This document shows positions 12,554 to 13,867 of a DNA stretch of 40,212 nucleotides, piece by piece (the first letter of the stretch is position 1; each line of letters opens with the position of its first letter). The DNA lies in NCBI GenBank assembly GCA_946628545.1, contig CAMOWU010000020.1, positions 1 to 40,212 of the forward strand, read 5' to 3'. The notes beneath the pieces are model-generated. The model was not told the DNA's origin. It searched no databases and saw only the letters and a program-made list of their open reading frames with translations. The translations under genes and the position numbers were made by a program. This stretch comes from an uncultured Bacteroides sp. GTDB taxonomy: Bacteria > Bacteroidota > Bacteroidia > Bacteroidales > Bacteroidaceae.

Positions 12554-12585
12554 TTGGTGTTTCGGCGTAAATGTTGTAATTTTGC
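12554..12585 (+). promoter_or_regulatory. Promoter of the queuosine operon
   Basis: TTGG at 12554-12557 and TAATTTTGC at 12577-12585, with 20 bases between TTG and TAA. Transcription would begin near 12592, only a few bases before the riboswitch stem. Confidence 0.7.
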
Positions 12586-12597
12586 ACCCCGAAACAC

Positions 12598-12630
12598 GCG
12601 AGTCCTTGATAACCTCGCCAAAAAAACAAG
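12598..12630 (+). promoter_or_regulatory. preQ1-I riboswitch-like aptamer
   Basis: A 33-base H-type pseudoknot can be drawn. P1 is GCGAG (12598-12602) with CTCGC (12614-12618). The 11-base loop begins with T and ends TAAC, so the base before the 3' P1 strand is a C (12613), where class I aptamers pair with preQ1. The 3' tail is C, seven A, then CAAG. P2 forms between CTT in the loop (12605-12607) and AAG at the end of the tail (12628-12630). This closely resembles the Thermoanaerobacter class I aptamer, including GTAAC and ACAAAACAAG. It ends 4 bases before the ATG of a queuosine-precursor transporter, which is followed by queF. Translation control is likely. Confidence 0.85.
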
Positions 12631-12634
12631 AATT

Positions 12635-13318
12635 ATGCAAAATAAAAATGTGTCGGTATCCTTTATGATTTGTGGGATACTTTTCTGTGTCTGCCTGATA
12701 TGTTCAAACATGCTGGTAGTCAAGTCTTTTGAGTTCGGACCTCTGAATTTCACTGGTGCCTTGTTCGTTTTCCCCATCAGCTACATCCTCAACGACTGCA
12801 TTTCCGAGGTGTGGGGCTTCAAGAAAGCCCGACTGATCATTTGGATGGGATTTCTGATGAACTTTCTCGTTGCGCTCTTTGGAGCCTTGGTTGATGCCAT
12901 CCCCGGTGCGCCTTACTTCGAGATGAACGATGCTTTCCATGCCATCTTCGGTCTGGTGCCGCGTGTGGCAGCCGCATCCTTCCTGGCTTTCCTTGTGGGC
13001 TCTTTCCTCAATGCCTACGTGATGTCGAAGATGAAGGTGGCAAGTCAGGGACGTCATTTCTCTGCTCGCGCCGTTCTGTCGTCGTTGGCGGGTGAATTGT
13101 CCGACTCAGTCATTTTCTTCCCTCTGGCTCTGGGTGGCATTGTGCCTTGGGACAAGATGGGGCTGATGGTGATCACTCAAGCAGTGCTGAAGACCGCCTA
13201 TGAGATCGTGATTCTTCCACTCACCATCAAGATTGTCAACTGGTTGAAGAAACGTGAAGGAACAGATGTCTATGACCATGACATCTCTTATAACGTGTTC
13301 CGCGTGCGGGAGATTTAA
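12635..13318 (+). CDS. yhhQ: Queuosine precursor transporter (YhhQ/QPTR family)
   Basis: A 227-residue membrane protein of the vitamin-uptake-like QPTR family (DUF165), which imports 7-deazaguanine queuosine precursors such as preQ0/preQ1. About six helices are seen. Family landmarks are CLICSNMLVVKSFEFG, ALFVFPISYILNDCISEVWGFKKARLIIWMGF and FLVGSFLNAYVMSKMKVASQG, with a C-terminal AVLKTAYEIVILPLTIKIVNWLKK. The start is the ATG at 12635; the open frame extends to 12554 but that part holds the promoter and riboswitch. It is the first gene of a riboswitch-controlled pair with queF. Confidence 0.95.
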   Translation: MQNKNVSVSFMICGILFCVCLICSNMLVVKSFEFGPLNFTGALFVFPISYILNDCISEVWGFKKARLIIWMGFLMNFLVALFGALVDAIPGAPYFEMNDAFHAIFGLVPRVAAASFLAFLVGSFLNAYVMSKMKVASQGRHFSARAVLSSLAGELSDSVIFFPLALGGIVPWDKMGLMVITQAVLKTAYEIVILPLTIKIVNWLKKREGTDVYDHDISYNVFRVREI

Positions 13319-13329
13319 TTCACTGTACA

Positions 13330-13377
13330 GACGCGAGTTGCCGCATCCTGCATGAAACGGATGCAGCAACTCGCGTC
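13330..13377. repeat. Long hairpin between yhhQ and queF
   Basis: GACGCGAGTTGC then GCATCC pairs with GGATGC then GCAACTCGCGTC, with a single C/A mismatch and a 10-base loop (about 18 paired bases). No T-run follows, so readthrough into queF is expected. The terminal GACGCGA/TCGCGTC matches the palindrome at 9748-9767. Confidence 0.75.
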
Positions 13378-13408
13378 GCTTTGCTAAAGGTATATTCGTT
13401 GTTTTATT

Positions 13409-13867
13409 ATGAGTAGAGAGAAAGAAAACCTTGTCCTTTTGGGCAACAAGTCGGAATACAGGTCGGACTACGACCCCAGTGTGCTGGAGACGTTCGAGAA
13501 CCTTCATCAAGAGAATGATTATTGGGTGCGCTTCAACTGTCCTGAGTTCACCAGTTTATGCCCGATTACAGGTCAGCCCGATTTCGCTGAGATCGTCATC
13601 GAGTACATACCCGATGTCAGAATGGTGGAGAGCAAGAGCTTGAAACTGTATCTTTTCAGTTTCCGCAATCATGGCGATTTCCATGAGGATTGTGTCAATA
13701 TCATCATGAAGGACTTGATTCGTCTGATGGATCCCCGATATATCGAGGTGACAGGATTGTTTGTGCCGCGCGGTGGCATATCCATTCATCCTTATGCCAA
13801 TTATGGACGCCCAGGCACCAAGTACGAGAAATTGGCGGAGCTGAGGCTCAGCCATCATGATCTGTAA
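13409..13867 (+). CDS. queF: NADPH-dependent 7-cyano-7-deazaguanine reductase
   Basis: A 152-residue type I (short, unimodular) QueF, which reduces the nitrile of preQ0 to the aminomethyl group of preQ1 for queuosine in tRNA. The catalytic Cys51 and Asp58 are in [10 protein letters not shown]. The substrate/NADPH-binding segment is [22 protein letters not shown] (Glu74, His88). The product preQ1 is the ligand of the leader riboswitch, so the operon has a clear feedback loop. It starts at ATG 13409, 90 bases after yhhQ, without its own promoter box. It ends before a strong terminator at 13897. queC, queD and queE are not in the window. Confidence 0.96.

Follow-up and report, generated by a model that had tools for sequence, protein, structure and literature searches.

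The yhhQ-queF leader contains a compact pseudoknot

The window analyzed here, a 40,212-nucleotide stretch of DNA from an uncultured Bacteroides sp., carries a small structured element that almost touches the start codon of a queuosine precursor transporter gene. This arrangement raises the question of whether the element is a preQ1 riboswitch and, if so, how ligand binding would be passed on to the genes that follow. Direct reading of the sequence identified CACGCGAGTCCTTGATAACCTCGCCAAAAAAACAAGAATT-ATG as the leader of the gene starting at position 12635 (the promoter, the parts of the element, and both genes are on the forward strand). The initial annotation had drawn a 5-bp P1 stem correctly, with GCGAG (12598 to 12602) as its 5' strand and CTCGC (12614 to 12618) as its 3' strand. 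P1 encloses an 11-nt loop, TCCTTGATAAC (12603 to 12613), whose first base is T and whose last bases are TAAC; these loop ends and the A-rich tail downstream of P1 also match the earlier description. The loop comprises L1 (TC, 12603 to 12604), the 5' strand of P2 (CTTG, 12605 to 12608), and L2 (ATAAC, 12609 to 12613), while the tail comprises L3 (CAAAAAAA, 12619 to 12626) and the 3' strand of P2 (CAAG, 12627 to 12630). P2 had been given as CTT with AAG, in which the three pairs are right but a fourth was overlooked; the true stem is 4 bp, CTTG with CAAG. The last base of the element lies 4 nt (AATT) before the ATG at 12635, and the element sits just downstream of a promoter, as had been claimed. 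The observation of a structured element at this position is therefore confirmed as real.

The promoter (12554 to 12584) consists of TTG at 12554 to 12556, a 20-nt spacer, and TAATTTTG at 12577 to 12584, an arrangement of the Bacteroidetes type. The sister species retains the TAATTTTG box, and both same-genus relatives have TAACTTTG. Of 105 related loci, 66 had TAnnTTTG within the 120 nt preceding P1, compared with 7% of control windows. Since the promoter lies so close upstream, the aptamer makes up most of the leader. The -7 box of the promoter is flanked by a 12-nt inverted repeat (12557 to 12568 with 12586 to 12597), which was considered as an operator or anti-aptamer stem and dropped, as the sister species is without it; the repeat is probably due to chance.

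The downstream genes import and process queuosine precursors

The gene behind the element, yhhQ (12635 to 13318), encodes a queuosine precursor transporter of 227 amino acids that scored 108.5 bits against TIGR00697 (cut-off, 50.95) and was also above the cut-off of PF02592. It is followed by queF (13409 to 13867), encoding a preQ1 synthase of 152 amino acids that scored 171.4 bits against TIGR03139 (cut-off, 86.9) and likewise exceeded the cut-off of PF14489. The target genes had thus been named correctly as those for a queuosine-precursor importer and QueF. A queF gene lies downstream of yhhQ on the same strand at 98 of 111 yhhQ loci.

The genome of the window also contains tgt. No queC match exceeded the cut-off either there (90% complete) or in the genome of the sister species (G017, 87% complete). 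In two other genomes of the genus, G044 and G065, queC adjoins yhhQ, and yhhQ and queF are 677 nt apart where same-genus relatives hold queC between them, an assignment that rests on positions. In the window the gap between yhhQ and queF is about 90 nt (13319 to 13408) and holds no queC; in the sister species the two genes are nearly adjacent. These data suggest that queC has probably been lost from both species and that the operon salvages preQ0, which QueF reduces to preQ1. The incomplete assemblies leave some doubt about this loss, and the yhhQ-queF junction in both genomes supports it. With queC apparently lost, QueF probably works on imported preQ0.

Between yhhQ and queF we also observed a strong 19-bp hairpin (13330 to 13377) with 95% complementarity; the folding energy of the intergenic region is -36 kcal/mol. 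Its candidacy as a second riboswitch was rejected, as it had no Rfam match and the sister species is without it. Elsewhere in the window, a TPP riboswitch (RF00059, 2587 to 2682, 63.8 bits) was the only Rfam match above cut-off.

The element exceeds chance and covaries but escapes the Rfam model

A search with the Rfam preQ1 model RF00522, which the initial annotation had put forward as a check, gave a negative outcome: the site scored 17.5 bits against a gathering cut-off of 39, with the full model matched (1 to 45 of 45). Across the whole genome the site ranked 2nd of 12 weak matches, with an E value of about 0.9, and we set this search aside as proof by itself on account of those dozen weak matches and that E value. 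The same model reached its gathering cut-off in none of the loci of 18 relatives, and on 20 further related loci the best score was 29.6 bits, with none at 39. Because the relatives also fall below the cut-off, the low score in the window reflects the Rfam model. We read the exclusion of the clade by the curated cut-off as a limit of library sensitivity, which is no defining biological feature. The novelty lies in the failure of the Rfam model to recover, at its cut-off, any of the clade members that were tried.

Searches independent of that model distinguished the site clearly. Scanning the sequence ahead of every ATG for this architecture returned a single site in the window, and 60 shuffled versions of the window gave no hit. 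The covariance model R2, from which the genus of the window was left out, gave the site an E value of 4.8e-6 (39.9 bits), compared with 3.8 for the next match in the window. Another model, R1, had been trained on the window sequence too, so that its 48 bits at the site are no test, and R2 was used instead. Across the genome of the window, the sole strong R1 match was at yhhQ.

Comparison of related yhhQ leaders for covariation, also suggested beforehand, was positive. In 41 distinct leaders, 92% of cells were paired, a percentage inflated by a leader parser that demanded at least three P1 pairs; the variety of pairs is unaffected by this. Changes on both sides of a pair were seen in 42 cells, compared with 9.9 in shuffles, and the covariation score was 0.264, compared with 0.087 when shuffled and at most 0.097 with the partners slid. 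Both strands of P1 carry compensatory changes among relatives: pair 2 is variously A-U, U-A, or G-C, and at pair 4 we found C-G, G-C, A-U, and U-A. P2 is nearly invariant, being mostly CTTG/CAAG, with ATTG/CAAT in two leaders and TTCYAG/CAGGA in the Bacteroides group, and is backed by few independent compensatory changes. The A-run of L3 is conserved in all aligned relatives, and the AC that ends L2 is kept among them. The leading U of L1 is also kept; it was demanded by the parser, yet it is visible in the alignment as well.

The element is widespread before yhhQ in Bacteroidales

We analyzed 111 Bacteroidales yhhQ loci, two of which are the window's own and some of which come from genomes represented twice. 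In 105 of the 111 leaders, an automatic parse located the motif beside the start codon; this parse accepted only a leading T, a loop ending in AC, and three or more P1 pairs, and the conservation of these features is partly built in. The parser chose the wrong stem in a few leaders (e.g., L016, L021, L022, and L036) in which the motif is still there. By eye, the motif was also present in L019, which has an upstream start, and in L045 and L050, which have inserts, bringing the number to about 108 of 111. The element was absent from three leaders (L047, L073, and L108), and P2 pairing was poor in L043, L059, L065, and L222.

Covariance-model searches of further leaders carried no requirement for a leading T, an AC end, or P1 pairs. 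R1 was applied to another 60 yhhQ leaders from Bacteroidaceae, retrieved by their genomic position, and 50 were positive at the ATG, including 41 with sequences outside the R1 training rows (35 distinct). The weakest matches were of the Bacteroides/Phocaeicola form, for which R1 was not built. In other families of the order 7 of 30 loci were positive, and in the rest of the phylum 0 of 30. A phylum-wide whole-genome search with R1, in which 23 candidates were scored per genome, can lose true sites and is no measure of distribution.

The element fits class I, type II preQ1 riboswitches

The 33-base element almost certainly belongs to a known class of RNA switches that sense preQ1. It is an H-type pseudoknot in which a P1 hairpin is combined with a P2 stem joining the loop to the 3' tail, an A-rich L3 (CAAAAAAA) lies between P1 and P2, and it precedes the queuosine transport and synthesis genes yhhQ and queF, all of which are features of class I. 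The types of this class are told apart by the bases before the 3' strand of P1, AC marking type II and UC marking type I (PMC11625349). In the window A12612 and C12613 stand directly before the 3' P1 strand, and AC is likewise found in the aligned relatives; C12613, in this AC, is the predicted ligand-specificity cytosine. The type I combination of UC before the 3' P1 strand and UU atop the 5' strand was not found, the window having AC and UC at these places. Type III riboswitches carry an AAGG Shine-Dalgarno sequence and UU beside P1 and are nearly restricted to Pseudomonadota (PMC11625349, PMC10622847); their AAGG, pyrimidine-rich loop, and UU beside P1 were not found in the tail ACAAGAATT and the loop TCCTTGATAAC. 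The presence of AC and the absence of AAGG in the window and its relatives therefore fit type II. According to a review, Bacteroidota is one of the phyla in which type I occurs, and type II is similarly distributed (PMC11625349), so the combination of class and phylum is already known. The class I assignment of the initial annotation thus holds, refined to a best fit with type II and with Bacteroidota members already in the literature.

Comparison with characterized systems gave the same picture. The element shares with the type II riboswitches of Thermoanaerobacter tengcongensis (Tte) and B. subtilis the H-type pseudoknot, the short P1, the AC before the 3' P1 strand, the A-rich L3, a P2 formed by the 3' tail, and queuosine-related targets. 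It differs from both in its target, yhhQ-queF, in a tail without a Shine-Dalgarno motif, and in an RF00522 score below the cut-off, and it differs from the Tte aptamer in having four Watson-Crick P2 pairs (CTTG/CAAG) where Tte has two canonical steps of four. The type III riboswitch of E. coli yhhQ also controls yhhQ, has AC at the specificity position, and pairs fully in P2, directly with the ribosome-binding region; however, it buries a true AAGG Shine-Dalgarno sequence and has UU beside P1 and a pyrimidine-rich loop, whereas the loop in the window begins U-N-CUUG and its tail is without GG. The type I riboswitch of Carnobacterium antarcticum is similar in overall pseudoknot, A-rich tail, and translational control but has UC before the 3' P1 strand, where the window element has AC, and binds two ligands. 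Class II and class III preQ1 riboswitches (RF01054 and RF02680) are alike in ligand and target genes, but their HLout folds differ, and neither Rfam model matched at the window element.

Predicted translational control without a Shine-Dalgarno site

The analysis shows a structure that is conserved and covaries, where it lies, and which genes it accompanies. From this we infer a ligand, a switch, and a mode of action: very probably, the element is a preQ1 riboswitch of class I (type II-like), forming most of the short yhhQ-queF 5' leader and turning translation off. In the ligand-free state, only the small P1 hairpin would form, and the A-rich tail with CAAGAATT would be open to the ribosome. 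preQ1, and possibly preQ0 too, would pair with C12613 between P1 and P2; in the bound state the tail would dock in the P1 groove and CAAG would pair with CTTG, giving a pseudoknot that would lock the bases from -5 to about -15 upstream of the ATG. Where Shine-Dalgarno sites are lacking, as in this phylum, what the switch would hide are the upstream adenines that promote initiation. The outcome would be lower output of the importer and of QueF, closing a feedback loop.

The leaders themselves are consistent with this mode of action. Bacteroidetes mRNAs are without Shine-Dalgarno sites, and initiation in Flavobacterium is favored by A at -3, -6, -12, and -13 and by low structure (PMC6847099). 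Adenine was found in 75% of leaders at -3, in 92 to 96% at -10 to -12 (96% at -12), and in 80% at -13, and those at -3 and -12 coincide with positions that favor initiation in Flavobacterium. Many of these initiation-type adenines double as L3 and part of P2, so ligand binding would be expected to lock up bases that the ribosome needs. The spacer between P2 and the ATG was 2 to 7 nt, with a mode of 4, in 105 leaders, which makes the translation start a natural direct expression platform and leaves no room for a terminator.

The identity of the ligand bears on a second reading, in which the RNA senses chiefly preQ0, the imported substrate of YhhQ, rather than preQ1. The lack of an above-cut-off queC match in the genomes of the window and its sister, where queF stays, points to import as the likely origin of preQ0; preQ0 is also the preferred substrate of YhhQ, and the Tte type II aptamer retains binding to it, at 35 nM (PMC10622847). 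However, that aptamer prefers preQ1 17-fold (PMC10622847), and product feedback from QueF fits preQ1, so that we regard preQ0 as an unlikely principal ligand. The short spacer bears on another reading, which keeps the same aptamer but has it act mainly via transcription or mRNA stability, e.g., by Rho-dependent termination after a translation block. The B. subtilis type II riboswitch does act on transcription (PMC11625349), and Rho could attack an mRNA whose ligand-bound leader goes untranslated; against this, the 4 nt between P2 and the ATG, like the 2 to 7 nt in relatives, give an intrinsic terminator no room, and no terminator-like site was found near the leader, making this mode quite unlikely. 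That the leader is instead conserved as an element for translation initiation, or as a hairpin bound by a protein, rather than as a ligand-binding RNA is very improbable, since the Bacteroidetes preference for A-rich open leaders (PMC6847099) would conserve the tail alone but leaves unexplained the compensatory P1 and P2 changes, the conserved AC before P1, the sole strong genome match at yhhQ, and the fit to the type II consensus.

Relatives carry variant and tandem aptamers

The preQ1 riboswitch proposed here varies among relatives. Inserts of about 11 to 35 bases in L2 were found in sixteen leaders, mostly of the Prevotella group (L048, L049, L055, L056, L058, L066, L071, L075, L079, L081, L087, L095, L100, L104, L109, and L113), and L050 has a longer one. 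These inserts, several of which fold as a hairpin, sit between the 5' strand of P2 and the AC before P1 and leave the remaining aptamer intact. In L045 and L021, inserts lie between P1 and the A-rich tail. A Bacteroides/Phocaeicola variant (L017, L018, L020, L060, L105, L110, L112, and others) has the loop TATTCYAG and, in most cases, the tail CAGGA(G), and its P2 may hide a Shine-Dalgarno-like AGGA, a sequence that the tails of other relatives lack. The loop of this group, TATTCTAGAACAC, appears to resemble the B. subtilis loop, UUCUAGCUACAC.

Three preQ1-I-like aptamers in succession precede yhhQ in Segatella baroniae DSM 16972 (L099:2893-2990) and in Prevotella illustrans A2931 (L107:2895-2993), and a third triple array was found before yhhQ in a further family member (L285:1478-1574). 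The L285 array has different P1 sequences and is possibly of separate origin. The weaker tandem copies scored 10.6 to 31 bits, and P1, CTTG, and CAAG were present in all of them. A strict pattern, adopted in place of a looser one that gave chance matches everywhere, detected one tandem genome among 399; copies without CTTG escape this pattern. To our knowledge, there is no earlier tandem preQ1-I system. A 2022 survey resting on known models placed preQ1-I among the classes never found in tandem (PMC9481103, Table 3).

Taken together, these observations tip us modestly toward regarding the Bacteroidales yhhQ leaders as an unrecognized branch of preQ1-I, characterized by a U-N-CUUG/ACAAG pseudoknot, a Shine-Dalgarno-free off-switch, optional L2 hairpins, and some triple arrays. 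If this branch is real, preQ1-I would no longer be a class without tandem arrangements. Should the triple arrays prove functional, they would have no known precedent among preQ1-I riboswitches and would allow one to ask whether translational aptamers placed in tandem give a sharper response. Together with these arrays, the chief points of interest are the clade-wide blind spot of the Rfam model and the Shine-Dalgarno-free expression platform, which would offer a compact natural system for riboswitch control of translation without Shine-Dalgarno pairing. For the organisms themselves, the finding means that a group of gut and rumen bacteria very probably carries preQ1 riboswitches on its queuosine-precursor salvage genes that the standard library does not report.
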